Source: Ulva prolifera
Lineage: Eukaryota > Chlorophyta > Ulvophyceae > Ulvales > Ulvaceae
NCBI GenBank assembly: GCA_023078555.1
Contig: CM041201.1
Span: forward strand, 5,773,172-5,837,171
Direction of reading: 5' to 3'
DNA: 64,000 nt
Numbering within the stretch: position 1 is the stretch's first letter; each line of letters begins with the position of its first letter. Under the pieces are notes generated by a model. It worked only from the letters and a program-made list of their open reading frames with translations, ran no database searches and was not told the origin of the DNA. Shown piece after piece: positions 805 through 63,790 of this stretch. Position numbers and translations under genes: made by a program.

Positions 805-858
<54 letters not shown>

Positions 859-2199: not shown

Positions 2200-2290
2200 C
2201 AGGCAGTATTTTAGCACTTTTCGCAGCACCGACGCGGTGCGGGCGTCGAAAGCGCGGCGATTTTGGCGGCGGCGGCGGCGGCAGCGGCCC
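2200..2290 (+). other. Unit junction J1 (TTTTAGCACTT block)
   Basis: CAGG (2200-2203) followed by TTTTAGCACTTTTCGC (TAGCACTT at 2212-2219) and, about 30 bp on, GCGTCGAAAGCGCGG. The same block starts units at 12649, 39901 and 63645. Upstream sequence is copy A exon 7; downstream is the leader of copy B. It is therefore the constant 5' end of a unit joined to a truncated 3' end of the previous one. Confidence 0.75.
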
Positions 2291-2864
2291 GGGGGCGGTG
2301 CGGGAAGCGCGCGAAACCCGGACCATCTGGGCGTGGCGCAGGGGGGGCGCGCGTTCCGCGAGACCGACGGGAGACCGACGTTTCGCGGCGGGCGAGGCCC
2401 GTTAGGGACGGCTGGGGAGCCTGCGGATGGCATTCGCGTGCGTTGTTAGCACGGGCGAGCGTGCATGCGAGAGGTCGGCGTTGTTACGGACCCGGGCGAG
2501 CGACAGCGGCGTAGAGACGGCGCGGCGGCGGGTATTTTTCGCGAGAATAGGTGATACAGCGTTTGATAGTGTTTCAGAGGCTTCGTTCCGAGCGGTCGGA
2601 GGCAGGAGCGGCGGTGCGAGCGCCGAGGCAGCGCAGCGACGTGCAGCGGGTGGCGTGGCGGGCGAGCGGCGCACGGCGCGGCGAGGATCGGTCTATCAGA
2701 AGAGAATCATCGGTATTCGACTCTGTAGGCGGGCGTAGGGCGCGAAGCAGGCGTCGCGGGGCGCAGTGCGGGACGTGGGCGGTCTCCGAGGCAGCGAGGC
2801 GCGGGACAGCCCGCCACGGCCGGCAGCCGGCCGGCACGGGCAGGATATCATCTAGGAAGAAGAG
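2291..2864 (+). promoter_or_regulatory. GC-rich leader of copy B
   Basis: No gene is recognisable. Very GC-rich sequence shared with the leader of copy C (12740-13308) and in scattered phrases (for example GACCGACGTTTCG) with the leader of copy D near 41.8 kb. It lies between the unit junction and the initiator exon, so it should hold the promoter and 5' UTR. No obvious TATA box. Long open frames on both strands reflect GC content. Confidence 0.4.
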
Positions 2865-2911
2865 ATGGAGCAGGATTCAGCCGCAGAGCAGCGGAGGAAG
2901 GCCGCGGAGAG

Positions 2912-4408
2912 GTGCGCGAGGTGCTGCAGCCCGTGGATGCGTGCGTAAGGCCGCGGCGTCAGCAGGGTCGCCGCGGCGCGTGCATGCGCGACGCGCACGC
3001 GCGCCGCGCGCTGTCGACGCACCGACCGCTGCCCGCTGGCGCCGCTGCGTGGCCGTGGCGGCCGCGCCGGCGAGGTCGAGCGCACGACGGCCTCCTGTGA
3101 GGCCTCGGAGTGCCCATGTCGCCGCCAGGGCGGCGGTCGCTGCGGCGATCCGGGATATAGGGCGCGCGGACGGGGCGAGGTCGCGGTCGCGCGTGGCGTA
3201 TCCGCATGCATATCGCGCGGCAGCCGCGCCGGCACCTGCCGACCCCGCTTCGCTCGGCGATAGGGCCACGCTCGCCGTGCACGCCTGGGCCGTTCGCGTG
3301 GCAGGTGCACGGTCACGTCCTCAACAGGCGGTGTTTCAGCACCTTTCGCGCACGGCAGTGTGGTGAAGGGTGCTGCTGTCCTAGGAGCAGTCCCGCGCTG
3401 CATGCATGCGCCGTCAGAACACGCGTCCGCGTAGCCCCCGAGGGCCCATGTGGCATATCCGCACGCATATCGCGCGGCAGCCCCGCCAGCACCTGCCCAC
3501 CCCGCATCGCCCCACGCCAGGGCCACACTCGCCGTGCACGCCCGGTCCGCGTGGCGGGCTCCAGTTTGCAAGCACATTCGGGCTGTTCAGAGCCGGGTTT
3601 GAGGTGTCTGATCAGACTGGCCATGGGGCAGTCCGCCACGCCAGCCCCGAAATGCAACAGGTCATTGGCTTGTGTGACACCTAGAGGAGTGCCACGTGTA
3701 AATATTGCTGTTGATGGCTGCTATTCGTCATGCTGTGCGGCTCCAAAACGCCCCAAGAAGCATCATCTTCAAGCCTGGGCTGTGCACCTCTCCTAGAACG
3801 CAAAAGCAACACCCCGAATTGCATTCCCACTGAGGGTGTGTCGCCAGAGTTGGCTCCCTCAAGGCCAAATTTCCAGCATGCTGCATCTCCCAAGCCCGCC
3901 TGACCAGAGGTTCATACTTACATCATGTGACAGTGATGCCCTGCTGCAAGCAGAGCCTCTCACTCTGCACATCCACCTCCAGATGGCATTCTGCGTGTGG
4001 TATCACCCCCGAACATCTGTGTGCTTCACCGTTTCTTGTGCGGAAAGTTGCTATGCACTCAGTCTCACTCAACAAAGGCATTCACCGGCAGTTTTTTTCG
4101 CGTGCTTCGCGAATCCGCGATCCAGGTGTCAACAACGCTGTTGTGAAGTGCATGGCGGAGCAGTGTGGTGAGTGGTGTCGCGTGGCGCATGCTGCATGCG
4201 TGATTCCAACACCCCGAGTTTGGCTGAGGTGCACCGGTGGCATTGCAACACTTGTCGCGCGTCGCTGTGTGGTGGAGGGTGGTGCTGTCCCCGGAGCAGT
4301 CCCGCACTGCATGCATGCGCCGTCCGTACACGCGGCCGGGTCCCCCCCGTACACGGGGCGTCTGGTCGAAGCAGCAGCGCATGTGGCCCGACCTGTCGCC
4401 GCTCGCAG
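2912..4408 (+). other. Intron 1 of copy B with internal duplicated blocks
   Basis: This 1.5-kb intron separates the initiator mini-exon from exon 2. It holds two tandem versions of a GTATCCGCAYGCATATCGCG segment (3189-3306 and 3447-3561) and two TAGCACTT-like blocks, CAGCACCTTTCGCGC at 3337 and CAACACTTGTCGCGC at 4246. Each block is followed by the same GTGTGGTGRAGGGTG and GCATGCATGCGCCGTC phrases. No coding exon is supported inside it. Confidence 0.45.
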
Positions 4409-5892
4409 GCGGAGGTACGAGTTGAACCCGGCGGGCGAGGAGGCCTTCAGGGCGCTGGAGGGCGCCGGCCTGACGAGGGAGCGCATGGAGAAAGCCCGCG
4501 CGTGCCTGAACCGCGCGGCGGAGGAGGTCAGCCGGATGGGCGAGCCGTCGCGCGCGGTGTGCGCGGCGCTGAACGCCACCGAGAAGCCCGACTGCGTCCT
4601 CCCGGACCCCGCGGAGTGGCGCCTCCTGCTGTCGCGCTTCCACCGCACGCTGCCCGGCCTCGAGGACGGCGAGCGCGGCGCGCTGCGTTTCACCCGCGCC
4701 CACTACGCAGTCATGTCCCTCCGCGGCGAGGACACCGACGCCTTGCTGCGGGAGGAGACGTCCGACGACGGGCAGAAGAGCCTCGTCGTCGACATGTTCG
4801 AGGCCGTCAAGTCGTGGAGGACCATGACGAAGGACCGGTTCGTCGAGGTCCTCCACGTGCTGCTGTACAGCAAGGTCATCGGCAGCAAGGGCTCGCTGGA
4901 CGGCATCAAGTACGCGGTGGGGAACCTCATGGGCGAGTACTACGCGGCGACGAACGAGGTGCGTGCCCCGTCCGGCGTCGCCGCGCCGCTCACGGGCGGC
5001 CGCGTGGCTGAGGGCCTGCGCCTGTGGGCGACGGTGGTGCGGCCTGTCGTCCGCGGCGTCGCGGAGGGGCCCGCAGTTGTGCTCAGAGGGGCCGCCCTGC
5101 CGCGCCGCTGGCCTGTCAGCCGCCGTGGGCGGGGGCCTGCAGTCTCACGGCGCATGCGACCGCCCTGACCCCGCTGCCTGTACAGGTGGTGGAGGCTGCG
5201 AGCCCCTTCCAGCGCTACAAGAGCGTCGTGAAGGGCGTCGCGATGTACATCAAGTCGTCGGGGCTCGGCGGGACGCGCAAGATCACGCCCCTGACGGAGG
5301 GCCAGATCCGGCGGACGGTGGAGGGCATGTACGTCGGCGGGTTCGGGATGCTCCAGGCGCGCGCCGTGTTCGCGCTGACCGCCATCGTGGGCGTCCGCAG
5401 CACGTTCTTCCAGTTCTGGCGCTGGCAGGACGTGTTCCTGCAGAAGGTCCTGCTGCTGGACGGCGAGGCGGTGCAGGCCTCTGAGGAGAACATGGCCCGG
5501 AAGGACACGACGGTGCGCAGCTGCTACTCCAGACCCGCCTGCAACCCGCCGTCCGGGCCGCCTGCGCCGGATCCGCCCGCTGTGCCTCCGCCCGCCGTGC
5601 CTGCGTCCCCTGCGCTCACCCGCGCCGTTGCCTCCGCAGATCGGCTACGCTCTCGTCACGCGCCACGTGGTCACCAAGGCGCCAAACGCGTACGGCGTCA
5701 ACGTCCTCGCGCTCGACCCCACGGGCCTGCCGGCGAGGCGGGGCCTGCCGCTCGTCGGAAATGCCGTGGTCGAGCTCGGCCTGGCGATGGGCGTCTTCGA
5801 CTGGGCGGCCCTCGACGACCTCGCCTTCGGGGAGATGCTGCCGTGCAAGCCCGGGACGGAGGAGTGGTGCGCCGCAGCCTGTCACAGACTCC

Positions 5893-6118
5893 TGTCAACT
5901 GCCAGTCAAAGATCCTGCAGCATAACTATGCCGTGTGTCCCACGTGTGGCAGTCTGAGCTCTGTTAGCTGCTAGGATCACCATTCATACAGTACAGACTC
6001 CTGCTCCACGTATCACGCTCAGCACTCTGATCTCTGCTGTAGTCGGTAGAGAGACACACGGAAACAGCAAAGCATTCTCACCTGCCAATTGCCAGTCAAA
6101 TATGACCTGGAATTGACA
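5893..6118 (-). repeat. Copia LTR, 226 bp
   Basis: Bounded by TGTCAACTGCC and CCTGGAATTGACA, so read on either strand it begins TGTCAA and ends TTGACA, the usual TG...CA form. A second copy of identical length lies at 16034-16259 at the matching position of copy C. It sits on the 3' side of the copia RNase H reading frame (minus strand), in intron 4 of the host YR gene. Confidence 0.65.
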
Positions 6119-7600
6119 GCTGCGGCCTGTATTCTGTGCTCTGGGCTGCTGACCTACGGGCTGCCCGCAGACTCACACCGAAATGCATGTGATCTGCTGC
6201 ACTCGTGCATCACAGCTAAGACACGCTTGCACCAGGGGAGCTCTGCTCCCCACACACCCCCTCGTGCGCTGTCGCTCGGAGATTCAACCAGGAATTCATC
6301 CACTGCCTTTCCCAGCGCTGGACCAGCCAAAGCCTCGGCCAGCATATCAGCCTCCTGCTCATCTGTCGGCACAAACTGGACATAAATCTCCTGTCGCGCA
6401 CATCTGTTCCTAATGAAGTGATACTGGATGTCGATGTGCTTGCTCCTTCCTGGGGCGCCAGCAGTCCACCGCTTCTGCGGATGCAAAGCACTCTGATTGT
6501 CACAATATACAGTCATCTGCTCAAAACGACCATAGGTATCACCCAGCAACTTCCTCAGCCACAGTGCTTCTTTCACTGCCATGGCAGCTGACATATACTC
6601 AGCCTCTGCGGTGGACGTGCAATCCCACATGTTGGCCCTCTGTAGCGCATTCTTGGCATACTGAGGCTGCTTCAATAGCAGGCCTTCTCCAGCCAGTTGT
6701 TCAAATTCCTGCCTCAGAAAGAAATGCAGCGGTCCCGGATCCTTCACCTCAAAATGCTTGCCCAGCATCTACAGATTCTTCATCACTCCACCTTCTCCTG
6801 CCAGGATCTCAGAATCATCCACATGCACCAGCACATATCGCTCGGAGATTCAACTAGGAATCCATCTACTGCCTTTCCCAGCGCTGGACCAGCCAAAGCC
6901 TCGGCCAGCATATCAGCCTCCCGCTCAGCTGTCGGCACAAACGGTACATCAATCTCCGGTCGAATAAATCTGTTCCTAATGAAGTGATACTGGATGTCGA
7001 TGTGTTTGCTCCTTCCTGAAGCGCCAGCAGTCCTCCGCTTCAGCAGATGCAACGCACTCTGATTGTCCCAATAAACAGTCATCTGCTCAACCCGACCATA
7101 GGTATCACCCAGCAACTTCCTAAGCCACAGTGCTTCTTTCACTGCCATGGCAGCCGACATATACTCAGCCTCTGCGGTGGACGTGCAATCCCACATGTTG
7201 GCCCTCTGTAGCGCATTCTTGGCATACTGAGGCTGCTTCAATAGCAGGCCTTCTCCAGCCAGTTGTTCAACTTCCTGCCACAGAAAGAAATGCGGCGGTC
7301 CCAGATCCTTCACCTCAAAATGCTCGCCCAGCATCTCCAGATTCTTCATCACTCCACCTTCTCCCGCCAGGATCGCAGAATCATCCACATGCACCAGCAC
7401 ATCTGAGTTGTTCTTGCCTTCACCTCTGATGAACAGACATGGGTCATTCTCTGACACCATGAATCCTTCTGACAACATGTCCACATGCTGCAAACATGCA
7501 GTGCAGAGCGCACGGGATGCCGAACGCTGTTTCGTGCATGATGTCGATCTGGAACACTTAAAATTTTGACTCCATGTAACTGACAGAGCAATCACAATTT
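6119..7600 (-). mobile_element. Ty1/copia remnant: RT end fused to RNase H, partly duplicated
   Basis: On the minus strand the frame starting near 7590 reads through VLVHVDDSAILAGEG (the copia RT VDD motif), FEVKDLG, LLLKQPQYAK, then passes directly into TSTAEAEYMSAA, DNQSALHLL, RSKHIDIQYHFIRN and EADMLAEAL, the classical copia RNase H series. The normal linker between RT and RNase H is missing, an in-frame internal deletion. A second, shorter copy of the same 0.57-kb segment lies at 6154-6837, joined tail to head, so the fragment was tandemly duplicated after deletion. No integrase, gag or 5' LTR is present. The insertion lies wholly within intron 4 of copy B. Confidence 0.85.
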
Positions 7601-7996
7601 GAACGAACGCAAGCTGTGGAGCAGAGGAGTGGTCTCAGCCGAGCTGCCGTGTCCACTCGCAGCTCACCTATGACGTTTTGCAGGTACGTCATCTGTGCCC
7701 AGGACGACCTGCTGATGCTGCCCTACATCAACGTGCCGGGGACGCGGATCTCGTGGCTGGTCGCGATGGCGGGCGTTCTCGCGGACGTCGGTCCGCCTGG
7801 CCGCGGCGTCAAGGTCGGCGTCCGGGCGCTGCGTTCCTCGATGGTCTTGCGGCAGGTGCTGATGCAGATCACCTCGGATCGCGCCCCGGACGAGACCGTC
7901 ATGCGGCACGCGGGCGCCTGGGTGCAGAACAGCAACTCTGCCGCGATGGTGCACTACTTCTCCAACCGGGCGGCCGCGACCACGCTCGGAGGCATG

Positions 7997-9034
7997 GTAC
8001 GTCGCCAGCCCATCTGTGCTCCGGTTCCACTGCCTGCTGTCTAGGACTAGTTGTCCGTGGTCACTGAGCGGACCTCGATGTGCTTGATGCTGGGAAGTTG
8101 GAGGGGTATGGCCCCGGCGCGGGGACCGATATGAGCACTAGAAGTTTATGACAAGAGAGTCAAGGTTAAGAATGCGTGATAGTCAAAATCAGAACAGAGT
8201 GCATAAATGGTTGCGCCCCATCCGACCAGTAACTACTGTGTCGGACCCAGCAAGCGCACAGTATAAGTACTGTTGTGAACGCGATCATCTGCGGGAATAT
8301 CAGTAATTTGTGGTGTATAAGTGTATGTATACGACTTTAAACGCTGAGCGCGCGGAGTCTGTGCTCAGTCGTGCCATGCATGCCGGACAGTGAGGATCCG
8401 TGACCTATGAGTCCCGATATCCTGGGGTCGGAGTATAACGGGCATGCCGGAAAAGATGAGTCCGACACTTGTTGAGTACATTCTGTGTTCCACCTTGGCT
8501 CGAGCCGCCACGGTGCGGGACGCAAGGGCTTGGGCTGTGATCTGCCCGTAGCCTGTGCACACTAGCGCATGCATTGCTGAGTCTGACATGTGAGCATGTG
8601 AACCTGAGAAGTTCACAGAGCGCAGCATAGTCGCCCAGCAAGCAAGTAGTGATATACGCACCTAATTAAAGCGCTCTATGTTGTGTTCTTGTGCATGTTT
8701 AAGCGCACTTCCAATTTGAGATCGAATCGTTCAGTCGTTAGCGCAATTGTGATAATGATTGAGCTGGTCAACATTGTGCACTCGTAGCCACATCGAGCGT
8801 CAGCGCACGATGCTTTGTATGCTCGCATTTCGTGTGCACAATCTTTCAAAATTTTCAGACACGAACATGAGGTTGTACATGAGTTGTACATTGTGAATTT
8901 CATGATCAATAATTTTGAAAAGTTGTGCACATCAAACGCAACTAGTTATGATGCCCAGCCTGCGCCAGAGTGAGGTGCCACCTCACGACACCTGCCCGCG
9001 TATGGCGTCTGATTGTGCGCGCTTGCCTCTGCAG
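7997..9034 (+). other. Intron 5 of copy B
   Basis: A 1.04-kb intron between the tyrosine exon (donor GTACGT at 7997) and exon 6 (acceptor CTCTGCAG). More AT-rich than its surroundings in the second half. I see no gene or clear repeat. Confidence 0.5.
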
Positions 9035-12000
9035 CAGCACGCCGGCGTGACGGGTAACCTGCAAGACATGGAGACGGCTCGCATGATCCAGCGAGTCGCC
9101 GCCGGCGCGGTCAACTCCGGCCCGGCGCCGGTCGCTGGCAACGAGGCAGAGCGAGAGCTCGCATGCTTCCTGGAGTTCCAGGCCAGCCAGCAGGGGCAGG
9201 TGCACCAGGCGCGAGTGACCGCGGCCAGCAAGCGCCTTGCGGACCACGTCGGCGGCCATGACGACGGCTCCGGCACGCAGATCGCGACGGTGTTCCTGCG
9301 GCTCTCCAGGCGAGTGGCCCGTGCCCCGGGCAGATGGCTCCAGAAGAAGCCGCTGTCTGAGGAGCGACTGGCTGCCCTCCCGGAAGGTGTGTCCTCCGCC
9401 CCTCACGCACACTCACACTGGTGCCCGGCGAGCATGCCCGCTTGTGTCTGCTTGGCGGTGTCTATGCGTGTGTCGCTGGGGCACTGTATGCGGTGGGCAT
9501 GTACATGTGGGTGTCGACGGCGGATTGGGTTTCAGGGGCGAAGCGATGTCACTGGGAAGTCCACTGTGGGTGGGCAGGTGGGTGACGATGGCGTGCGGGG
9601 CTGCAGTGGCATCAGCATCACTGCTGCGTCGGCGCTGTTGGTGGGTGTGTGAGTGCCGACGACGGGCAGGACTGAGATGGCCCTGTTGCCCGAACTGCAG
9701 CGTTGCTGTAAGGGGGCATGCGATGCCACGGTTTGGCTGGGGCTGCAGCCGACGCACCGCCCGAACACTAGAATGGTGTTTGATGGGCACGTTCTCTGCC
9801 GATTCGGCTTGCACTGTGCGATGTTGTGAGTCGACACTGTGTGCAGAGCACCGCGCTGTGATGACTGACTTCACCGGTGTCGTGGTGGAGGCGGTCGTCG
9901 CCAAGGACGCCTGGCTTGAGGGCGCCGAGAAGGTCATGTTCATCGACAGGCGGCGCCTGAGGGCGCTGCAGGAGAAGGCTGCGCCACAACGCGCAACGCT
10001 GGACGACATCGTGGAGGACTACCCACGCGGCCCGTTCGACGCCGACGAGGTTGACGATGAGGACGACGAGGAGGAGGCACCTGAGGATGTCATCGACATG
10101 GACGGCAGCGCGGCTGAGGAGGAAGCCGAGGCAGTCGCGCATGCAGACAGAGAGCTCCGCGATGTCGTCGAGGCCGCCGCCGAGATCGCGGCTGTTCCTG
10201 CTGACGCCATGGAGCTCGAATTGGCGATGGAGCTGGCGGAGGCAGGCCCGGAAGGCGCTCCGGCAGATGCCCTCCGACGCGACGCAGCACGTGACGACGG
10301 ACCGTCAGCTTTGGCGGACTCGGCTCCGGAGGTCCCGGTGGACCCGGACGAGCCGAGGGGGGGTGTCGGCCACACCGTGTCCGCCGGAGGCAAGGTGGTC
10401 AAGATGAACGTCAGCCACCAGGCCGCCCTGGCCGTGATACAGTCGCGCACATTCCATCAGCACAGCCTCACGATACGCCCCGAGACCGGCAAGTCCGCGG
10501 TGCCGTATCCGAGCTACAGCCGGGTGCCCAAGGCGCATGCCGAGTTCGAGCTGGACCTTCTGCACCTTGCGCACGACAGCGGGGACACCCTCCTTGAGGA
10601 CCTTGAAAAGGTACTGCATGGCACGCTTCCCATCATTCCTGCGCGAGCCTGCAATCTCGAGCCCTCCGTGCGGGAAGAGCTGAACCAGTTGCACATGTGC
10701 CTCGTGATCGGCTGTCCCGACCGTGTGAAGCTGGGCACGGACCATGCGCTCCGGCTGTGCCCTTGGCACATCAGGGGCGACGTTCGCATTCGGGGTACAG
10801 AGGAGGACGTGCGCCGCTGCACCAAGTGTCACGCGCTCCGCGACGTGCGGGAGTTCCGGCACGGCGCGGGAGTCGACGGTGACGGAGGGGTGTGCAAGAG
10901 GTGCTCTGTGGTGGACCACAACCGGAAGAACCCTGGCCGAGCGCAGCCGGTCCCCGTCCACCTGCCCGTCTCTCCACAGGAGGTGGAGTCTGGAAAGGAT
11001 GCCGACCAGTCCTTCATTCTCGACCGGCGCGCGGCCAAGCAGCGCTCCGATGCCAACCTCCAGGTCCGGCCCGGCGAGTCCCTGAACTCGCCGTACGTCG
11101 CCTACGCGTTCTACGACAAGGACCGGGAGGGCCATCTCCACCGCTGCGTGCGCATCGGCTGCCAGGGGGACGGCAAGCTCAAGGACCGCGACGGGGCAAT
11201 GCTGTGCAAGAAGTGCTTTGATGTGCGTGTCCAGCCTGTCTGCCACGCGCCGCTGCTGCCTTGTGACCTGTGTGTGATTGGTGTGGACCTCATGTTGATC
11301 CCGCGGGTTGGAGTTTGACATTCCAGAGCTGGAGCCGGCGTGAGCGCCGTCGCTGGCCTGCAGGATGTGCGGGGGCTGCAGTTTGTACTCGTGGCCGTCG
11401 TGGACAACACGGGCAAGCACACCGGCAGGCTCATGTACATCCGACCGTGCAGCGCGTGCGGGCTGGGCTTGCCGCTGCAATTGTTCCGGCCCGGGCGCGC
11501 GTCATGCAGTCGCTGCATCGACAGGAACGCGGCATATCGGCGCCAGCGTGCGCCGCGCACAGAGCGTCCTGATGCCCCCGCAGGGCGCACAGTGGGCGAC
11601 GCCCGAGAACGCGCTGAGGCTGGTCATGGACCGGGAGGCTGGCGCCTGCAAGGCCGAGACCTGCACGGCAGAGGCTGCACGGAAGGGCGCAGGTCCGGAG
11701 GCTGCGCGGCGAGTGCTTCCATTGTGTCTGACGCACATGCCGGTGTGCCCCCCTCGCCACATGGATGCCAGCGACCTCTCCATGGTGCTCATTGCTATGT
11801 GTGCTGTCGAGTCCGGGAACATCTGCGTCGACACCGGGCCCCCCGTCAGTGTGCCATCTGAGACCCCAACCCGTGTGGCGATTCACCACGGCGACAGGTG
11901 GCGTTGCGAATGCAGGCATATTGTTGCATCGACCTCAAGACGGGGCGCAAGATTCGCTGGTGCTCCACCCACGGTCAGTGGGAGCCACTTGCCTGTTTCA

Positions 12001-12648
12001 GCGGGTTCTTCCGGACGTGCCAAGGCCGCCGCCTGCCGGCGACGAGCGACGAGGCGGTGGAAGCGGCGCGCGTGGCTGCAGCCGTCGCTGCAGATGCCGC
12101 TGATGCGGGTCCCGATGACGCGGGCGACGAGGATGCCTGGAACCCCGAATGGGGGCGGCAGTCGATGCTCGTGCACGGCCAGGACGCATGTGCGCAACTG
12201 AAGGGCCACCTTGGAGATGGGGTCACCAAATGGGCCGCGCGCGTGCTCGGTCGTGACCTGTCCGCGATCGACGAGGAGGACAACTTTGTCGAGGAGGCGG
12301 TCAGAAAGCTGTACGATGACGGGCAGGCACCTCGGGAGATCACGGCGACCGGCACGCCGCTGCCGCCTGCTCCGGCTTCCAGGACGTGTGCCATCTGCGA
12401 TCAGTACACGTGCCCGGCGGGCTTCGTCGGTCAGTCAGTGTGCCTCACATGCGCGGCGCGCGGCAGGGGCGCCGGGGGCCTCTCGATGATTGATGTGAAC
12501 CACGCGCTCGTGACCGGGCTGCTGTATGGGAAAGGTGTGTGGCCGCAGCCGTGCCGGTGCATGTGTTTCCGTTGGTGCTGCTCCCATACCTGCTTGCCTG
12601 AGACTGCGCGAGGGATCCACGTGCAATTGCAAGCTTCTTCCTTCTTGA

Positions 12649-16018: not shown

Positions 16019-16033
16019 GTGCGCCGCAGCTCC

Positions 16034-53200: not shown

Positions 53201-55299
53201 GAGACGCTGTCGGACCCGATGTTGGTGCTCGCGACGTATGCTGTTGAGCGGCGGGGCCACGAGCACCAGTGTGTGCGGGTGGGCTGTATCAATGACAGCA
53301 AGTCCTCGAAGCCCGCGACCCTGTGTCGAGCTTGCTGCAAGGTGCGCGGCGACTGAACTTGTGTATACACCCCGGTGCATCTGGTTTTCATTGTGAGCCC
53401 TGTCACAGTTGTCAGAATTCTGGCGTGTGCTTTTGTGGATGCATAAATGCCTCTCTCGAGCCCCGGTGTATCCTCTGATGCGTGTGCATGTCGCAGAGTG
53501 TGCGGGGGCGGCATTACGCCCTCGTCGCCGTTGTGGACGTTGATGGACGTCCAACCGGGGAATACATGTATGTGCGATACTGCAGCGGTTGCCGGCGGGG
53601 GCTTCCGCTGCACATGTTCAGGGATGGCCTGGCTCAGTGCAATCGCTGCGTCGACGGTGACGCCGAGTATCGCCGGCGAGCGGCACAGGAGTCGCTGCCG
53701 GGGCGACCCCCGGACGTCAACACGGATGATCTGGAGTATTCCACCCCAGAAAAGGCTCTGATCATGGACTACGCCTACGGCCCCGGACTGTGCAAGGCGA
53801 AGAACTGCCGAGAGGAGGTTGCTCGAATCGGAAGTGGCCCACAGAATACAACGCGCGCAGCGCCGATGTGTGGGCCTCACCTCAGGGTAGCGTCTCCTCA
53901 CTGGACCACCACATGTCGCCAGGCGTGTCTTACAGAAATGCTACAGCCACAGGGGGTACTTGTGATCTAACACTGTGTTGTACGGAAGCTGTTCCATTGT
54001 TTACACGCCAATCACCTGCAGGCTTTCTATGTCAAAGTGGAGAAGACCGGGCTTCTGCAGCGCTGGTGCACGGGCCACAAGATGTGGGAGCATCCGGACG
54101 TCTTTGGGGGCTTGGTGCGTGCGTGTCGCCACCGTTTTGTTACCAGGTCACTACCTGTGACAGGGGCTGCCGGCGAGCAAGGCGCTGCCGGCGAGCAAGG
54201 GGTTGACAGCGCTCATGATGCCGATGTTGCCCGTCCCATGCCTGCAGTCGCAACGCCCGTCGCCGGGCCGCTAGCGCTCGCCGAGTCTGTCTCGGGTGTT
54301 GCCATCGAGGGCACAGCGAGTGACAGCCCGGTGGCTGGTGTATCGAGCTCTGGGACACTCGCGCATTGCGCGGCTCCCGTATCTGCTGTCAATACGCTCA
54401 TGCATGAGACCATTTCTGTTGCCACGCCCACCACAGCTGAAGCTGGTGGTTCCACAGAGGAGTGGCAGGTGGCATGGGGGTGCCAGACTGCAATTCTCGG
54501 TGGATGTACTGCGGCCAACCAAGTCCAGGCGTACCTCGGAAGACAGGGGGCGGCCGCTTTTGCGAGGAGCATCCTCAACCGGCCTGATGCCTGCGATGAG
54601 GCCATGGGGGCCGCAGTGGACGATGCTGTGAAGAAGCTATACACCACGCTCGCCGCGGAAGGCGGCCCCACCACACCAGCGATTGGGTTTCCGGTTGCGC
54701 CTGTGCGCGCACCAACGACATGTGCGCGCTGTAGCAAGCCTACATCGGCTGACGCGTTTGTCGGCAAGTCAATGTGCCTGTGGTGCGCTGCGGGAGGAGC
54801 TGAGAGCCTCTCACTGGTGGACGTTGGCAGTGCGCTCGAGTCTGGGATGTTGTATGGCAAAGGTGCAGTCCATCATCCATGTGTGTTCGGTTGTGACTGT
54901 GGGCGTTGCAGCATCAGCTGTGGTGTTGCAGTGGTGTGCGTTTACAATGTGGAGAGACCTGGGCCATGGCGATGGCCAAGCAGCAGTGCAATGTAGTGAT
55001 GCAGCTGTTGTTTGTGCCAAGGGTTTTGGTGGACACTCTGACTGGTACACCTTGCAGGGCGGAGAGTCAGGAGGCAAGCTGTCCGCACGGACCCGAAGCT
55101 ATCCGCGATTGGCGGGGTCACAGTGGCGCATGCCCAGGTGGCTAAGAGCCTCACGAAGAGGAGGTCCGTCAGTGTTGCTGGCGTCGCAGGCGAGCCTGCG
55201 AAGAAGCGTCAACGACACACCAGCAGCCAGAGCGCCCGACTCAGACACCAGCGGAAGGTTGTGCAGGATGGCTTGGCCCTGACGCGGTGTGCAGACTAG
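47258..55299 (+). CDS. YR element copy E: most complete tyrosine recombinase gene
   Basis: Exons: 1 47258-47292 (MATAEAEELSK), 2a 48779-49136, 2b 49299-49469, 3a 49643-49813, 3b 49941-50096, 4 50462-50688, 5 50893-51229, 6+7 51566-53341 (no intron, unlike A, B, F), 8 53497-53886, 9 54022-54862, 10 from 55058 with a stop at 55297. About 1,560 residues, no frameshift seen. Core: TALAGLRTTFFQYWRWRDV (box I Arg, about residue 259), VNKCPNSYG (Lys, about 310), RALRSSMVLR (Arg, about 431; box II His replaced by Arg), HIGTW (about 456-460), MVHYFS (Tyr, about 472). Exons 7-9 add acidic stretches and Cys pairs (LCTACH...CHRC; YCSGC...CNRC; CARC...CLWC), probable zinc ribbons for DNA binding. The last exon is basic (KSLTKRRS, EPAKKRQRH), a possible nuclear signal. 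The order matches YR integrases; cousins may be Cryptons, but a distinct family is likely. Confidence 0.75.
47293..48778 (+). other. Intron 1 of copy E
   Basis: A 1.49-kb intron between initiator exon and exon 2a. It contains a short dispersed segment at 47606-47650 (TATTTGTCTTTTCCCGTTCAC) with an inverted relative at 47722-47757, and the 61-bp tandem array at 48155-48543. Confidence 0.5.
48155..48543. repeat. Six tandem 61-bp repeats with an imperfect hairpin
   Basis: The phrase GAGAATGGTCGGTG recurs at exact 61-bp intervals (48183, 48244, 48305, 48366, 48427 region, 48488 region). Each unit holds GAATGGTCGGTG and CACCAACCATTC around GGG, an imperfect 12-bp inverted repeat, plus CATGCATGTRACGATCCAGG. 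It lies about 240 bp before exon 2a of copy E. Confidence 0.9.
50097..50461 (+). other. Intron 3 of copy E
   Basis: A 365-bp intron. Contains GGATGAGAGTCGGTGCCAGT followed by TATTTGTTTTCTCCCATTCAC, a relative of segments near 47606 and 60012. Confidence 0.5.
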
Positions 55300-55499
55300 G
55301 AGGACCACGTACGTGCAGGTGAGCCATTTGATTGCTCATTCCTCGCTGATTGACCCTATGTTGCGTGCGCACGTATTGGCTGGTAATGTATCATTGGCAG
55401 CATCGTCCCTTGTACAGTCTGTTGCCCTGTCCCAATGCATTTCTGGAAGGGCGCATAGGGCTTTCTGTGGTCGGACTCGCTGTCACTTTGATCCTGCAG

Positions 55500-57878
55500 T
55501 TCATCAGTGCACGTTTCATCTTGGTACCCGACGACGTCGACCACGAGCTATGCAGAGAGCGATGATGAGGATTCGGAGCCACCGGAACCGGCAGATGCAG
55601 ACTTGACCATGCTGGCCGCTGCCCGTGCGGTGTATGCGCACGGCTTGGAGTGGTTGGCGAACACCGACTGTACTCACGCCGCCATGGAGACCGTCGAGGA
55701 GCTCCTCCCTGCCTTCGCACGCCGTTTCGGAACGAACAACTTCGCGTCCTTCGCTGTGGTCGATGCGGCCGGTCCGCGGCCAATCCTTCGAGCTCGGCAG
55801 AGCGATAAAGGTGGATGGCAACAGGTTCGCTTCTTACACAATGCTGTAAAGCACTGCCCGGAGAATTTGTGTACTGTTCGCGGTAGCACGCCGAGGGGCC
55901 AGAAGTGCGAAATAGTGCTGTGCTAGCTGTGGCTGCCAGTTTTGGGACACTCGAGCTCTGACGGGGTGATCCTGTACGCGAAGCTGTATACCGGCAGCGG
56001 ACCAGATCTTCAGGGCCTGGACTGATGAGGTTTACGTTGAGATGCAGGTGATTTGTGCTCGCCCCCCCGGGCTGCGAGGTCGCAAGACGCATGATTCGGA
56101 CACCGTCACTGACAGCACGTGGTTTGGGGGCTATGGTATCCGTATGAAGGACAACGAGCTTTGCGGTGACGTGCTGGTGAGGGACAAGAAGCCTCGTCGC
56201 ATTGCAACAGGATTGCCTGGTCAGGACCCGGACCAGGACGCGGCGGTGCAAGTGGCGCGCGACACGTTTGCGTTGCTGCTGGATCGCCTGCACAATGTGC
56301 TCGGACCTGTGCCAATGAAGCCGGTGCATGTGCTGTCGCTGGCCTTCCTCGAAAACTGCAAGATCAAGGTTCCAGCGATCGAAGACCGCCATCAGACGAC
56401 GTTGCTGATGACTGCTCACCTCTACACTGCGGTGATTGCCCGTCACAGGCAAAAATATGTGGAGAGCGGCGATGGTGCGCCTGATAGGAGCAAGGTTGCC
56501 CATGTTATCGGTTACTGCACAGCACGCCTCGCTTGTGGCCTGCGAGAGGCCAGCAAGCCCTCCCCTCTCCCGGCGTCAGTCTGGGAGACTGTCCGTGGGG
56601 CTGCAGTTGCCACGATGACCGCATTCGAGTCACACGGCCAAGCCCTTTATGCAGCGGGAGCAAAGCTGTACTGCGGGCGTGCAAACGCAGCGTTCCCTGA
56701 AGAGGTGTTGCTGACGCGTCACAAAGCTATCTTCTCGGGCCTGGTGATGGCAGGGATTGTGGGTGGCGGGCCCAACACAGCAGAAGCGCTGCGCGAATTT
56801 GTTGCAGGTGACGCAGCACCCGGCACCGGGGTTGTGCCGACGCGATCCTACGCAGATGACAGCGTCGCCCATGCAGACGACAGCGTTGCAATGTATGCAG
56901 TGCGGTCTGATTCACGTGGCTGCGTTGGAGTGGCCTGCGGCGGCGGCACTTCCGATGCAGTCGGCTCCTGTGCAGCTGGATCGTCACAGGCCATGCTCGC
57001 TGGTAGTGGCTGTGGTGGTCTGCAGGCACCCTGGTCTGACACCACTGCAATTACAGCAGTTGTTGATCATCCAGCGATTCGTGTCACAGGTGTGGCGGAC
57101 GCGCCACCCGTTGAGAAGGTGAAGGCGAAGACTGAGCCTGTTGCCACGTCTTGCCTTGAAGGAGTCATCACCGTGTCTTCGGATGAGGAGGCCCCGCCAA
57201 CTGCAGAACAGGGAGCGCCCGCAGCTGCACCGACGGCAGAGCCGGCAGGTGATGCTGCGCAGCTGGCTGCTGTCGATCTCGGTGCAGCACTGCAGCGCCT
57301 GGAACCTAGCCCACGGTCTGCTCACGAGTCCTTGCCGAATGACCAAGTGCCGTCACTGAGTGATGTGGAGGCATCGCAGCACCACATTAACATTGACACG
57401 TACAAGTACGATCTGACGGAGTTGGCAGCAGATGTCCGCGCCGCGATCAAGGCTGTCACGCCTGCGGTATGTTCTGGTCGTGCCCATGTTGTTGTGGCAG
57501 TGCAGGTGGTGGCAGTCGGCATGTGCGTGCATTTTCTGGAGTCGGGGAGTTTTGTGCAGTCTGCTGTTGTGTATTTTCTTTTATGAGAAGCTGCATGCAG
57601 GAAGTCTTTGCTGTGTTGGCAGACGGCGCATACGATGCCGTGATTCTGCTCGGCCCCGGCGGCTGTGGCAAAACGGTGCTGGGTGAGAATGTACACGGGC
57701 GAGCGGTCATAACATTCGGCGAAGAGGGGGCGGCACGGTGTGCGCAAAGTGGCAGGCACGCAGCGAATGCAAGGTGCATGACGTTGGCACGCCGTTTCAG
57801 GTATGGTTCGTATATGCAGCGAGCGCAGATATACCTCAACCTGCAGGCTGCCGATGAGGTCGTCGTCTCACGACACTT
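55500..57878 (+). CDS. Second gene of copy E: unknown domain plus P-loop NTPase start, 3'-truncated
   Basis: Open segments: about 55550-55820 (SDDEDSEPPEPADAD... to QSDKGGWQQ), about 56000-57465 (from AWTDEVYVEMQVICARPPG to AADVRAAIKAVTPA) and 57601-57870. The long middle exon starts with a compact domain (GGYGIRMKDNELCGDVLV...HVLSLAFLENCKIKVPAIED) that I do not recognise, then an Ala-rich linker, then HHINIDTYKYDLTELA. The last exon reads YDAVILLGPGGCGKTVLGEN, a Walker A P-loop, after which the copy is cut at junction J7. The fold could be a helicase or AAA-type ATPase; the rest is missing. Splice sites between 55820 and 56045 are unresolved, and it may instead be the continuation of the YR gene by splicing around the stop at 55297. 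Confidence 0.5.
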
Positions 57879-57930
57879 TAGCACTTAAGAACCTGTTTTG
57901 GCGTCGAAGCCGCGGTGCGGGAGCGGCGGC
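57870..57930 (+). other. Unit junction J7, variant block
   Basis: CACTTTAGCACTTAAGAACC (TAGCACTT 57879-57886) then TGTTTTGGCGTCGAAGCCGC and GGTGCGGG. It cuts the P-loop exon of copy E and opens the unit of copy F. Confidence 0.7.
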
Positions 57931-59765
57931 GGCGGGCGGGGGGTCGAAGCGGGGACCCCGGCGGCGCCGCGCGCGGCGCCGCGGCGCACGGGACGTGACG
58001 TGACGTGAGGGAGGCGCGTGGCACCGCGCGGGGCAGGTGACGTCGCGACGCACGAGGGCTATGGGATCGTTTTTGGAGAAGGCAAAAGGACCGACGGTGA
58101 GCGAAGCGAGCACACCCAGGCGACTCGTGCGACGTGGCAGGAAGATACGGACGATCGCATCGGGCGTGCGGGCCGTGGACGTGCGCGCATGTGTTACATG
58201 TACAGGGGAGCGGGATAAGGACGCGGGCGCGGCAGTGCACTGCCATGGGCCGCGGATTCGTACATGGAGATGGATATGGACGTCGACGCGGGGCGCGGCA
58301 GCGTGAGGCGTGGGCGTGACGTGGCAAGGATACCCAGCGCGCGCGCACCGAGGCCGGCAGCTGTAACGGCCAGCTGCGGCGACGATCCTGCTGCGGTCGC
58401 AGAGGTACATACACCGCACTGGACGCGGGCGAGGCCCGGGGGGCCGCGGCGAGGCACGACGGGAGGCGGCAGGTGCATGCAGCTGCAGCGACGCGACCGC
58501 GCGGGACCCGCGAGGCCTGCCAGATGGGGATAAGCCAGGGATAACGGTGATGGGACGGGGATAAGGGGGATAGGGCGGGGGTGGCCCAACACGACGGGCG
58601 TGGATGTCATCCGAAACAGCAGCCGCTCACTATAGGGGCGCCCAGGCCTCAGGCCGGCAGGCCCGCGGGCTCTGGGCGCGCGCGACACGTGGGTGGCACC
58701 GAGAAGGCGGGGTGACGTACGTGCGAGGTGGCCACGCGGGCCGGGCTCGGCAGGCAGGTGGCAGGTAGGCACGTGGATTGCAGGCAGCGTGCGGCAGCAC
58801 GCAGGACGCGGGGCCGGCAGCGGGCGGCGACGCGCCTCGGCACGGACGTATCTCGAAACACGCCGCCCTGGAGGCGGGCGAGGTCCGGGAGGCGGCACCG
58901 GCGGGCCACGGCGGGCAGGGGCGCCTCCAGCGACGCGACCGCGCGACACCCCATCGCCGTAGGAGCGTGAACACGGGCGGGCTCCCACCACAACAGGGGG
59001 AGCTTATCCGGATCGAAGGGCTGAGACACACGGCTCGCAACAGCGGCGCCCAGGCCTCCGGCCGGCAGCGCCGCGTCCTCGGCGCCCGCGTGACATGGTG
59101 GTGGCAGCGAGAGGACGGGGTGACGTACGTGCGAGGCGGCCACGCGGGCCACGCGCGGCAGGCAGTGATCCACGGCAGGCGTGGACGACCTCTGCAGCGG
59201 CGTGGGCGTGTGCGCGGAGTGGGGGCGAGGCGAGACGGGAGGCAGCGGCTGTGGCGCCGCGAGGAGCGGCCGCAGCCGATCGGAGCCCAAGTGGCACCGG
59301 TGTAACGGGGCCATATCGTCGACCGCTCGCACCCTCGTTCACAGGCGCGAGTGCGGGTTCGCGGACAGAGGGACGGACTGCATTCGAAGGGGGGGCGCGA
59401 TTGCTATAAAAGGGGCGACGCGACGGAGAGAGCGTGTGTACATCAGCTTGGGTCGCCAGCGACGGTGACTCGCAAGCAGAGTAGAGCAGCGCGGACGGGG
59501 TGAATCTGTCGTCAGACGGCATCTGCAGCGTCGAGCGACGTGCCCGGAACCCATCGAACTGCCATCAGTGGAGTCGAGGTTTCAGTGTTTGTTTCCTCTC
59601 CCGTTCACGCCTTGCGAAATTGTGTCCATCAGTGGAGTCGAAGCGTCGCGCCGTCGTTAACGCGAGTCGTCGGTCCTACACGCCATCGACCGGCGTCAGC
59701 CGGTAGCACGCGGGCACACGACACACCGCCCCAGGGGGCACCGCGACGGAGAGAGGGAGGCCGGG
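57931..59765 (+). promoter_or_regulatory. Leader of copy F with a 0.4-kb tandem duplication
   Basis: Very GC-rich, no gene supported; long frames on both strands are compositional. A segment starting CAGGCCTC at 58643 recurs from 59051 with the shared phrase GGGGTGACGTACGTGCGAGG and CCGCGTGGCC-type sequence, a tandem duplication of about 408 bp. A TATA-like CTATAAAAG occurs at 59403. Probable promoter and 5' UTR. Confidence 0.45.
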
Positions 59766-62700
59766 ATGGCCAGCGACGACGCCGGCATCGCCGCGATGAG
59801 GTGCGTTTATTGTTAATAACGTTCGGTGTTTGCAGCGCGACCCGGTGCTCGCGGCTTGTGCACGCGTGCGTACGTGCGTGCCGTTGACTGTCGGCGGTGT
59901 GGTCGTGCTCGAAGCGTATCTCGAGACACCGGCCGTGCCCTCGAGGGGGGTCGATTCGACATGCATGGCGGTGTGTGATCGGGTGGGTTTGTACGTGTTG
60001 CTGTTCATTCGGATGAGCTCGTCAAGAGTCGGTGTGGGTATTTGTCTTCTTCCGGGACACCCGCAACCGCAGTCGCAAGCGCCCGGGGGGGCAGGTGCGC
60101 CAGTGGCGCGGCTCCGCTGACCAGGCGTAACAGCTGACGGGGCAGGCGGCGCGGCTCAGGCCCGTGCACGCGCACCGCACGCGCAAGCCTGCGCACATGG
60201 TCATGCGTGGGCGTGCCGCCGACGGCGACGTGTCTGTGCAGGGCACGCTACGAGCTCAACCCCGCGGGCGAGGCGCTCGTGGAGGAGATGGCCCGGAGGG
60301 GCATCACGGTGGAGCGCGTGCAACAGGCACGTGCGTGCGTCAATGCCGCTGCAGTGCGAGCCGGCGAGCGCGGGGAGCCCTCGCGCGCCGCCTTCGCTGC
60401 GGCCGGCGGCGTCCCCCTGCCGACACTGTCGCTGCCAGCCCTCGACGACTGGCGGCTGCTGCTCAGCCGTCACCACCGCTCCTTGGCGGGGCTGGAGGCT
60501 GCAGAGCGCAACGTTCTCCGGTTTGCGCGCGCACACTTTGCCGTCCTCAGCACACGCGGGCTCGACACCGACCATCTGTTGCGGCGAGACACGATGAAGG
60601 TGTGGGCGACCTGCGCCGTACAGGCACTAGTGGCATGGGGCCACCCCATCCCCGGCCAGCGTGTGTCCGGCGCTGACAGTGTGAGCTCGTTTGCAGCTCG
60701 ACATGTTCAAGGTCATCGAGTCGTGGCGCACAATGGCGAAGGATGTCTTCACTGCGACCCTACACTTGATGCTGTACACGAAGCAGATCGGAGCCCGGGG
60801 GACGCTCGACAGCTATGAGCATGCCATCAGGTGCTTGTGCAGAGCGTACTATGCGGCGGCGGATGAGGTGCGTGTCCGAAGCCTGCTTCTTGTTTGTGTC
60901 GGCCTGCAGCCGGCACCAGTGCTCCTGCCTGTCGCGCAGGCGCACATGCATGGTGCCTGGACGCCGCGCGGGTCCTGCGCCAGTCCCCGAGGGAACGTGG
61001 GCTGGCATACTGACCTGCAGGTGCGAGTGGCCTGAAGGGGGGGTGGTGTGCAGGTGGTGGATCAGCCGAGCCCATTTCAGCGCTTCCTGCCGATCGTGAA
61101 GAGCATTCGGATGTACATCAAGGCCTCGCCGCTCGGCGGCACTCGCAAGATTACCCCCCTCACCCAGGGCCAGATCATGCGCGCAGTGGAGTCGATGTAT
61201 GTCGGGGGCTTCGGCATGATGCAAGTGCGCCACCATGCCCTCTCCCGAAGCTGCTTTGCGGTCATTGTGGCTGCGGCGCAATGCTAAATTGTATCGGCAG
61301 CCTTGGCCTGTCAGTCAGCATGTCCAAGGGCTGCACTGTGATGTCGGGCACGGTGCCCGAGTGTGTGCGCGCTACAGTAGTGTGCCAGCCGTTCTGGAAG
61401 ACATCCTTGTGCTGTGCTTGTGTCCTTGGCTAGCCGTTTCACAGGAGGCCACGTCTCACCCTGTGTTGATGTTTCCAGGCGCGCGTGGTGTTTGCCTTGA
61501 CTGCGATCGCTGGCCTGCGCACCACATTCTTCCAGTACTGGCGCTGGGAGGACGTGGAGCTGATCAAGGTCCCCATGCTGCAAGGCGAGGTCAAGGATGC
61601 GACGGAGGAGGTGCTGCACAACAGTGACACGCAGGTGTGGCGCCTGCCAGTGTGGCTCGTGGGATTCCGCAGTGACTGCCGCTTCCGCCGCGGCTGTCGG
61701 GGCTGCAGCACGTTTGCTCTCCTGCCTGTTGCCTTGCTGGATATTGCTGTTGTGTTTTTCTGCTGCGCACCCTGGCCTTTGGCGGTGCTGCGGTGGCGTT
61801 GCTGTGGTTCGGCCGCGTGTCACGTCGTCGCTGGCGGGCACCCTGTGTGCGTGGTGCCGCTACCAGTGTTGTGGTGCCGCTATCAGTGTCGTGGATGTTT
61901 GTGATCTTCCCTATGCATGCTGCCGCTGGCAGCCTGCGCTGCTGCGGCAACTGCTGTGACGGAAGGCTAACCGGAGTGACACTGTGCAGATGGGCTTTGC
62001 CTTTGTCAGCCACCACGCTGTCAACAAGTGCCCCAATCAGTACGGGACACCGGTGCTGGCGCTCGACCCGACGGGGCAGCGCATGTCGCCCTCCATGCCG
62101 GTTGTCGGCAGCCTCCTCGTTCAGCTAGGGCTGGTGATGGGCGTGTATGATGCGGAACAGATCACGCGCCTGCCGTACAACGCGCCCCTCCGCCCGAAGC
62201 CGCATGCACAGCATTGGTGTGCATCTCTGCTTCGTTGTATGGCTCTGCGTGTGACGTAGTGTCCGCATGTGGTTGCGCTGGCATCATGCATGATGCAGCG
62301 CTGCTTCCCTCGCTGTGGCGTGCTAGCGCTGAGCCCACAGATGTTCACATGTGTGACCCGCTGTAGGTATGTGATATGCACACAGCATGACCTGATGTTC
62401 CTGCCATTCATCAACGTGCCTGGCGTCCGCATTTCCTGGCTGGTCGCGATGTGCGGCCTACTGGCCGAACCTGAGGACGGCGCGGAGCCGCATGGCCGGG
62501 GCGTGCGAATGGGACCCCGCTCACTGCGGTCGTCCATGGTGCTGCGCATGGTCCTCGGGCGCATCACGTCGGACCGCGCGCCTGACGAGGTCCTCATGCG
62601 CCACCTCGGCACGTGGGTCCAGAATGCAACGGCTGCAGCCATGGTGCATTACTTCTCCAGCCGCGGCGCGGCAGCAACTCTGGCTGGCATGGTGCGCACT

Positions 62701-63279
62701 CCAGGATTTGATCGAGGGCTGTAGGCTGCTGTGCAAATGAGCTCAACACTGGCTGTTGATGGTGTGGTAGACTGCTTGCGCTCTATGCAATGGGGATGCA
62801 CCACTGTGCCACTGTGGGCACCTGTCGCTGGCCGCTGCAATGGGTGCATGTGCTTGTGTGCCGCAGACAACGGTTGCCGTGCTTGTTGCTAGACAGGCGC
62901 CCGCGGTGGTGACGGCAGCTCGCCGTGCAGGCACAGGCCAACATCACGGGCAACGCTCAGGGAATGGAGCATGCACGCACGATTGCGCGCATCGGCGGGG
63001 ATGCCGTTGGGCCCAGCCTACTGGCCACCGCGCAGGAACAGCCCGAGCGCGAGCTCTTTCTTTTCATCGCGTTCCAGAAGTCCAAGGACGGCGCCGTGCA
63101 GCAGGCTGTCCTCACAAAGATGTCCAAGCTCCTTGCGGACCACGTTGGGGGCCACCTGGCCGGCAACGGCGGGGCGGTCGCGTCGGTGTACCATCGCATC
63201 ATGCGGAAGGTGGCACCGTATCCGGGGAGGTGGCTCCTCCAGAGCGCGATGCCAGCCCACCGCCTCGCCCAGCTCCCAG
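59766..63279 (+). pseudogene. YR element copy F: catalytic part complete, truncated after exon 6
   Basis: Exons: 1 59766-59800 (MASDDAGIAAM, phase 2), 2a 60242-60599, 2b 60697-60867, 3a 61054-61224, 3b 61479-61634, 4 61990-62216, 5 62367-62691, 6 62931-63279 (ends in phase 1). Exon lengths equal those of copy E for 1-4. Core motifs: TAIAGLRTTFFQYWRWEDV, VNKCPNQYG, RSLRSSMVLR, HLGTW, MVHYFS, so the whole YR domain is intact and uninterrupted by stops. The zinc-ribbon exons are absent: the intron after exon 6 runs into tandem repeats and junction J8. As a copy with all catalytic residues but no C-terminal module it could still yield a short recombinase if exon 6 is read through or spliced into the next unit; this is inference. 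Confidence 0.75.
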
Positions 63280-63304
63280 GTGCAGCACTACATCTCTGTG
63301 CGCG

Positions 63305-63643
63305 TGTGTTGCCATCCCGTGTTTCCGTGAGTCCACCTGCTCTGCTGCATCTCTGCATGCGTGTGTGTTTTTGTGCTGTGTTCGGCCCGTCCGCCTGCTC
63401 TGCTGCAACTCTGCATGCGTGTGTTGCCATCCCGTGTTTCTGTGAGTCCACCTGCTCTGCTGCATCTCTGCATGCGTGTGTGTTTTTGTGCTGTGTTCGG
63501 CCCGTCCGCCTGCTCTGCTGCAACTCTGCATGCGTGTGTGTTTTTGTGCTGTGTTCGGCGCGCCGCCTGCTTTGCTGCAACTCTGCATGCGTGTGTCGCC
63601 ATCCCGTGTTTCTGTGAGTCCACCTGCTCTGCTGCAACTCTCG
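63305..63643 (+). repeat. Tandem repeats in the last intron of copy F
   Basis: Alternating units of about 56-60 bp with CTGCATGCGTGTGT, CCATCCCGTGTTTC and CTGCTCTGCTGCA, six copies up to the junction. Confidence 0.85.
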
Positions 63644-63644
63644 A

Positions 63645-63790
63645 CAGGAGAGTCTTTTAGCACTTTTCGCGGCGGCCACGCGGCGGGGGGGCGTCGAAAG
63701 CGCGTGGCCGGGGGCGGGGCCGCGCCCGGCGGGCCGCGGCGCGCGGTCGAAACGCGGGCCTCCCGGCGGACGGGCCGACGGCACCGTCTG
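63645..63790 (+). other. Unit junction J8 and GC-rich leader
   Basis: CAGGAGAGTCTTTTAGCACTT (TAGCACTT 63658-63665), then the same GC-rich leader as 39901-40045 with small differences. It begins another unit that runs out of the window. Confidence 0.75.

Follow-up and report, generated by a model that had tools for sequence, protein, structure and literature searches.

It is characteristic of prokaryotic genomic islands that their tyrosine integrases make use of tRNA genes. In bacterial and archaeal islands and prophages an element end lies at the 3′ end of the tRNA gene, in a fixed orientation to it, and elements can stack at such a site. Here we describe DNA elements of the green alga Ulva prolifera whose 5′ ends immediately follow tRNA-Ala and tRNA-Ile genes and share their strand, and truncated copies of which follow each other head to tail in a stretch of 64,000 nucleotides (C6:5773172-5837171, referred to as the window; contig C6 is 8.80 Mb long, the genome assembly 88.9 Mb in 44 contigs). 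The units are best explained as copies of large mobile DNA elements with two genes, about 15 kb long in the one copy that was traced from end to end. They resemble prokaryotic islands in the element end at the tRNA, the fixed orientation and the stacking, but unlike those islands they reside in a eukaryotic nuclear genome and have genes with introns.

Cryptons, eukaryotic DNA transposons with a tyrosine recombinase (YR), resemble the Ulva elements in their YR-type motifs and in the lack of a reverse transcriptase, none being found among the Pfam hits of the two Ulva genes (PMC3212892). The Ulva elements differ in being much larger, in carrying a PIF1-like helicase and an SBP-like domain, and in the lack of a match to DUF3504 (in Pfam, two families of gene 1, the gene with the YR motifs, gave no match at E values up to 10) or to another YR profile. 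Because of this profile result they are not classed as Cryptons. The words tRNA and helicase have 0 occurrences in the main text of the Crypton paper (PMC3212892). DIRS-1 of Dictyostelium is a YR element that favours existing copies of itself and is reported to cluster at centromeres, but it is a retrotransposon with inverted terminal repeats, and the accessible sections describe no tRNA targeting (PMC5006619). The LINE (long interspersed element) clusters Zepp and ZeppL of green algae are also localised, arise by nested insertion and have one constant and one truncated end; unlike the Ulva elements, Zepp is a retrotransposon without long terminal repeats (LTRs), has its constant end at the 3′ side and lacks a YR, and a tRNA anchor is unmentioned in the sections at hand (PMC8226300). 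Large YR-encoding DNA elements in algal nuclear genomes are known from cryptophytes, namely polinton-like viruses; a scan by the authors of the 1 kb flanking every inserted element on either side showed no tRNA genes near the integration sites (PMC12220804). Dada elements are DNA transposons that target tRNA and small nuclear RNA genes, but they use a DDD/E transposase, and five lineages insert inside the tRNA gene, at nucleotides 8-13 (PMC8869645). The YRs of majaniviruses also direct a large eukaryotic element to a site-specific genomic niche; these are virus-derived, from crustaceans, and have telomeric or ribosomal DNA targets (PMC10871703). No report of a eukaryotic nuclear YR-type DNA transposon using tRNA genes was found in the accessible portions of open-licence PMC papers.

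An earlier note on this DNA had described units that begin with the same block, TAGCACTT, at positions 2212, 12662, 39914, 45802, 57879 and 63658, each preceding copy being cut at a different place. The block is present at all six positions, always on the + strand, and the head-to-tail order with unequal cuts is real: self-comparison of the window together with 200 kb of right flank (264 kb together) revealed copies that show the sequence across the cuts. The flank carries an uncut copy of each of units 0, A and B (97-99% identity in pieces of 0.9-7.8 kb). Because such near-identical copies supply the uncut sequence, four cuts in or beside the window could be fixed to the base, those of units 0, A and B and of a B-like unit left of the window, which is cut by the start of unit 0 (locus L007, C6:5767120) after ATCAACCAT; loci L006 and L013, at a greater distance from the window, provide additional cases of this kind. 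The 11-mer TTTTAGCACTT occurs exactly at 2209, 12659, 39911 and 63655, that is at four of the six unit starts, with 0.01 matches expected by chance per window and none of 100 shuffles reaching 5. A fifth exact match, at 40715, was rejected as a unit start; it sits in an internal repeat and marks no junction. Two corrections have to be made to the earlier description, an additional 5′ end of the TAGCACTT kind at 38062 and, behind the truncated unit that starts at 12659, a second repeat, T, starting at ~16490. Upstream of TAGCACTT the conserved 5′ end includes a further 15-30 bp or so, as units A and D are homologous from 39896 and 63640 onward and unit B matches a tRNA-anchored copy from 45784. 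The sequence GACAGGAGAGTC was first suspected to be pure target sequence, which was rejected when uncut copies and tRNA joins showed much of it to be the element's own 5′ tail.

Mapping of the block across the genome found the 16-mer TTTTAGCACTTTTCGC 15 times, on C1, C2, C6 and C9, in one orientation per cluster. By protein searches most copies fall into seven clusters: C1 2.75-2.80 Mb (+), C1 12.09-12.15 Mb (-), C2 10.55 Mb (-), C2 10.84-10.90 Mb (+), C6 5.63-5.92 Mb (+), C9 1.03-1.08 Mb (-) and C10 1.19-1.20 Mb (+). Outside these there are a distant relative on C8, a weak match on C3 and pieces on C5.

At seven of the eight tRNA genes examined (6 Ala, 2 Ile) the 5′ end of an element or of repeat T follows within 40 bp on the 3′ side, on the same strand; at the eighth the distance is ~650 bp. 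Five of the seven carry TAGCACTT-type units and two carry T, 13 and 24 bp behind the tRNA. The Ala genes were found with a tRNA-Ala pattern allowing up to 2 mismatches in 34 places, which yields 6 genes and which diverged tRNA-Ala genes would escape; an Rfam tRNA family scan gave at least 60 tRNAs in the genome (63 of 1780 candidates scored). On C10 a unit with a C-type 5′ tail begins immediately after a tRNA-Ile(AAT) gene; on C1 another C-type unit does likewise. The two tRNA genes are alike and their upstream flanks differ; the exact 28-base 3′ part of this tRNA has two occurrences genome-wide, which are these two element sites. Family Ia directly follows tRNA-Ala(AGC) at C1:12148.1 kb, and a family II unit directly follows tRNA-Ala(TGC) at C6:5632775, its first 1.4 kb being 99.6% identical to unit B. 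At C2:10551.2 kb a tRNA-Ala(TGC) is followed by a 19-bp stub of family II (recognised by eye) and then by family Ib, all within 40 bp. The choice of tRNA may go with the family, Ia being seen with Ala-AGC (one case), II with Ala-TGC (two) and C-type with Ile-AAT (two). The window's own cluster starts at two tRNA-Ala genes, at C6:5625795 and C6:5632775, both of which are among the tRNAs of the Rfam scan. A tRNA stands at the readable start of five of the seven clusters, C6 being counted by its second tRNA and the starts on C9 and at C2:10.85 Mb lying outside the count. When 11 of the 15 loci around exact 16-mers were examined for this (the other four lie in the window or flank), L004 and L005 had a tRNA-Ala just upstream. 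According to a crude estimate, random placement would give an expected number of 0.0002 listed tRNAs on the same strand within 50 bp upstream of 11 cluster starts; the number observed for TAGCACTT-type units is five. Duplication of tRNA flanks is a conceivable source of the two T cases, against which speaks the copy of T in the window that has no tRNA.

The element 5′ end is probably an integration end. The tails found behind tRNAs are AATTCTCGACAGAAGAGTC-TTTTAGC for family Ia, TTTTGTCGTGTCATTTCAATAAGC for family II, TTTCGTCGTGTCATGACACTTTAGC for the C type and TCTTCTCGTCAGACGTAGGATAAGC for the C10 type, and those of T are TTTTCGGTCTTTCCGAGATAACGGG and TTCTCGAGCCAGACGAGTCGATGTAACGGG. Inverted repeats around a short spacer are seen in several of the tails by eye, with no shuffle control: GTGTCATGACAC, CGTC-A-GACG, TCGG-TCTTT-CCGA and CTCG-AGCCAGA-CGAG. 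Such repeats are as would be expected of YR core sites. The join at L041 retains half of the inverted repeat only. Furthermore, 5′ stubs of 19, about 30, 22 and 344 bp adjoin other 5′ ends (L005, L012, L014/L015), and this stacking of stubs suggests a hot spot at the tRNA side.

All 17 joins with a recognisable left unit have both partners in the same direction. They comprise the joins between units 0 and 1, 1 and 2, A and B, B and C, C and D, and D and E, and those at L003, L005, L006, L007, L012, L013 (two), L014/L015 (three) and L041; in some of them no more than a stub of 19 to 30 bp stands on the left. Excluded from this count were L001, L002, L010 (left neighbour unplaced), L040, L047 and the joins to T and to a family Z. 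No hit to an exon of the YR gene lies on the minus strand in the 264 kb.

Exon counts on C6 fall along the element, 17 units having exon 2 (one of them just the second half), 13 exon 5, 8 exon 7 and 3 the P-loop exon of the second gene. All 24 hits of exon 5, exon 7 and the P-loop, some of them partial, have an upstream exon within 4, 4 and 8 kb, respectively, so that no orphan 3′ part is visible on C6. This agrees with the earlier observation that the missing 3′ pieces do not reappear after the next unit: a search confined to coding exons detected none of those missing from the cut units in the 200 kb to the right of the window. In the C10 unit another 5′ end interrupts the helicase, the remainder of which is absent from the 14 kb beyond the cut.

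In contrast to the defined 5′ ends, the element 3′ end is only roughly located, from two copies on C1 and C2. The C1 copy was traced by matches from the tRNA at 2754.3 kb past gene 2 to the end of the match with the C2 copy, ~15.4 kb, the letters being read at the ends only. A common 3′ terminus at C10:1204050 was considered and rejected, since the C1 and C2 copies run on past it and the C10 copy is cut there by another 5′ end. L045, L046 and unit E gave no clear terminus for families I and II.

Gene 1 has about ten exons, as determined by eye and by search. In an alignment of five families over 474 columns the motifs GLRTT, SLRSS, HLGTW and VHYF follow in this order, and R246, R415, W444 and Y456 are invariant. 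We read these motifs as those that carry, in a tyrosine recombinase, the two arginines, the tryptophan/histidine and the tyrosine; as a deviation, the His that is usual before the second Arg is Arg in these families. As judged by its motifs, gene 1 encodes a multi-exon protein that is a putative tyrosine recombinase. In its C-terminal exon there is a cluster of cysteines that weakly matches SBP (PF03110; unit B, E 0.00037; unit 1, E 0.042; both below the Pfam cut-off). This weak match, the introns, a G+C content near 0.6 and the style of the repeats are in keeping with a green-algal genome. Gene 2 appears to be PIF1-like (PF05970, E 9e-5, below the curated cut-off; PIF1 in PDB, E 0.0045), and in unit E it has an in-frame stop. 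The distant relative of gene 1 on C8 (L049, L050; C8:4048000-4053100 in part) keeps the YR motifs; long microsatellites lie beside its exons, and it is possibly a host gene or an old copy. Viral relatives were sought as well, and none was confirmed among 45 pattern matches.

We suggest that the elements integrate behind tRNA genes, stack in one orientation and then undergo deletion between the 5′ end of a unit and its upstream neighbour, and we give this reading a probability of roughly 0.57. The constant block would be the element-side half of an attachment site, and the YR would insert circular copies behind tRNA genes, always facing the same way. A co-oriented stack would build up as further copies enter at this tRNA end or at the 5′ end of a unit already in place. 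We infer that recombination or break repair between the 5′ attachment site of a unit and a site in its upstream neighbour then deletes the 3′ part of this neighbour in cis, which would leave a constant 5′ end joined to a variable truncation. The deletion step would explain the co-orientation because only direct repeats delete, while free insertion into pseudo-sites does not explain it.

Several observations weigh against this reading. Gene 1 gave no YR match in sequence-profile searches of Pfam, NCBIfam, PHROGs and PDB, and since no library named it as a YR the label is motif-based. The weakest point of the model is the scatter of the joins, which are spread over several bases, with 6 to about 27 bp of tail retained at unit-unit joins and some 35 bp of filler at L003; this looks more like end joining than like a clean YR exchange. 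At the left edge of the window's cluster, the first 5′ end recognised by BLAST is ~650 bp away from the tRNA-Ala(AGC) at C6:5625795, and the sequence in between resembles family I by eye only. There is no tRNA in the 64-kb window, nor in the 4 kb examined at the C8 relative. Of 32 downstream exon hits in the six other clusters, nine are without an upstream exon within 4.5, 4.5 and 9.5 kb (exon 5, 2/13; exon 7, 4/12; P-loop, 3/7; hits on C3, C5 and C8 excluded). Two pieces on C5, moreover, stand without any neighbouring hit of exon 2 or exon 5: C5:5915130-5917523 (exon 7 region, 5.916 Mb), with 94% DNA identity to the C10 type, and C5:3564151-3564839 (P-loop region, 3.564 Mb), with 87% DNA identity to the C10-type 3′ region.

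The main rival is nested integration, in which units insert whole into secondary sites of their neighbours, whose right halves are lost by unrelated deletions afterwards or lie elsewhere. We regard it as unlikely, although it is the alternative to be taken most seriously. The window by itself is compatible with it, since unit D runs off the right edge, and the nine orphan exons of other clusters (e.g., the C1 exon 7 hits at 12101333, 12095720 and 12088282) and the isolated C5 pieces are what it would leave behind. Another YR element, DIRS-1, is reported to insert into its own copies (PMC5006619). Under plain nesting each cut unit should leave a right half, but on C6 none of the 24 downstream exon hits is an orphan while 14 of 17 units are without the P-loop exon; neither does free choice of pseudo-sites predict that 17 of 17 joins are co-oriented. 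One apparent orphan, L002 (C1:12088781-12091796), with ~630 bp of a family I 5′ end immediately followed by an exon 7 resembling that of unit 1, has the look of an internal deletion, and inserted repeats and internal deletions may explain some of the orphans outside C6, where nesting may well occur. The earlier note had concluded that units attach by one fixed end, as telomeric elements do, or move by one-ended replicative transfer, and had argued against simple nesting. It was right that nesting fits poorly on C6 and that one fixed end is joined, head to tail, to many cut positions. One-ended transfer, in which a linear or rolling-circle copy is fixed by its 5′ end to a break and the other end is never precisely joined, appears improbable to us. 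It would suit the constant 5′ end, the variable joins, the short tails of variable length and the filler, but elements with both ends seem to exist, because the C1 unit can be traced from its tRNA to a 3′ region common to the C2 copy, and no replication-initiator domain is among the Pfam hits of the unit proteins, no other search having been aimed at one. Integration at tRNA genes followed by deletion accounts for the orientation with fewer new assumptions.

A link to chromosome ends, by telomere-associated or break-healing elements, was suggested by the head-to-tail order and the loss on one side. We rejected it and consider its probability negligible: the window lies 5.77 Mb into the 8.80 Mb contig, the clusters on C1, C2, C9 and C10 are also more than 0.5 Mb away from contig ends, and the anchors found are tRNA genes. 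A pattern search found no TTTAGGG/TTTTAGGG arrays, which says little because this search skips simple repeats. An assembly artefact that joins similar repeats is very improbable. The region is repetitive and the joins are known from the assembly alone, but several clusters and several tRNA genes show them, at many positions and with tails that depend on the family, and the unequal cut positions rule out one collapsed repeat. Table 1 gives the features of the window.

Table 1. Units and other features of the window, in window coordinates (position 1 is the first letter).
Feature	Position	Strand	Description
Unit 0, family Ia	1..2200	+	YR-gene exons 6 and 7; cut by unit 1 after ..GGGGCCATGC
Unit 1, family Ib	2201..12645	+	constant 5′ end at 2209; YR-gene exons 2-8 by search, exon 9 by eye
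Unit 1 exon 5	7685..7996	+	C-terminal half of tyrosine-recombinase-like domain (RALRSS..MRHAGAW..MVHYFS)
Unit 2, family I	12646..16484	+	5′ end at 12659; exons 2-4; 97.1% to 4054-6361
Repeat T start	16495..16691	+	95.4% to sequence behind tRNA-Ala(TGC) at C6:1172.1 kb
Further TAGCACTT-kind 5′ end (TATGTAGCACTTTGGAGGATGTTTTTGG)	38058..38110	+	related to unit B; short stub only recognised
Unit A, family Ia (like D, unit 0)	39896..45783	+	exons 2-4 and residues 1-35 of exon 5
Unit B, family II	45784..57862	+	5′ tail TTGTCGTGTCATTTTAATTAGCACTT; YR-gene exons 2-8; second gene
Unit B YR-gene exon with cysteine cluster	51917..53344	+	weak SBP-like zinc domain match
Unit B second gene	56045..57862	+	PIF1-like helicase N-terminal part and P-loop (LLGPGGCGKT); domain assigned from a relative
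Unit C	57863..63639	+	YR-gene exons 2-6, with 5′ end at 57879; unit D cuts it ahead of exon 7
Unit D, family Ia	63640..64000	+	start only in window; runs to ~77284 of window plus flank, where unit E begins

Unit 0, whose 5′ end lies left of the window, is 97-99% identical to unit D in two pieces within 70014-72629 of the window plus flank. Unit 1 is cut by unit 2 near the start of exon 10; its right limit is approximate, there being no uncut copy of this site. On its minus strand, at 6272-7402, a Copia-like RNase H region was recognised by eye, in two pieces arranged in tandem (94%). This Copia-like insertion is common to unit 2 and to a unit at 141535 of the window plus flank, and the cut of unit 2 lies inside the fragment shared by units 1 and 2. 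Repeat T is also related, at 16501-16682 and with 84.3% identity, to sequence behind the tRNA-Ala(AGC) at C7:1853.2 kb. Unit A is cut by B after GCGGACGTCG and is 97.3% identical to D over 5.8 kb. A 238-bp repeat (97.9%) lies directly left of unit A at 39669-39906 and is found again, inverted, at 45027-45264 between two exons of A. Unit B is 99.1% identical over 7.8 kb to unit E in the right flank, and ends in the helicase P-loop exon, where C cuts it after GATGAGGTCG; the 5′ region of B contains a 61-bp tandem repeat (48151-48545), which unit E has too.

Other repeats adjoin the units. Positions 18500-36000 of the window are occupied by a large separate transposon with a piece of an Ulp1-like C48 peptidase (PF02902, E 0.00014, above the cut-off) and a weak DUF4218 match (E 0.078), which we take to be CACTA/KDZ-like. 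It is flanked by palindromic repeat arrays GAGTGGCCATTCGGCGAATGGCCACTC, with 64-bp units at 19647-20257 and ~110-bp units at 34914-35392. The right flank (C6:5837172-6037171, L016-L035) contains LTR-retrotransposon-like repeats from ~97 kb of the window plus flank onward. One of them, at 97507-104443, has an inverted copy with 96.6% identity at 134378-141295, and tandem copies with 6.2 kb spacing are found near 150-163 kb.

In a wider sense, the elements may represent a new superfamily of large nuclear transposons with a YR and a helicase that behave like bacterial tRNA islands, with tRNAs matched to families, nearly all such Ala and Ile genes occupied, and stacks that lose 3′ parts through the elements' own recombinase. 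We hold this view tentatively, its chances being slightly short of even. If it is true, family-specific tRNA choice, co-oriented stacking and 3′ loss would be joined in one testable system, and there would be another route, beside those of Zepp and DIRS-1, from one chromosomal site to a repeat cluster.

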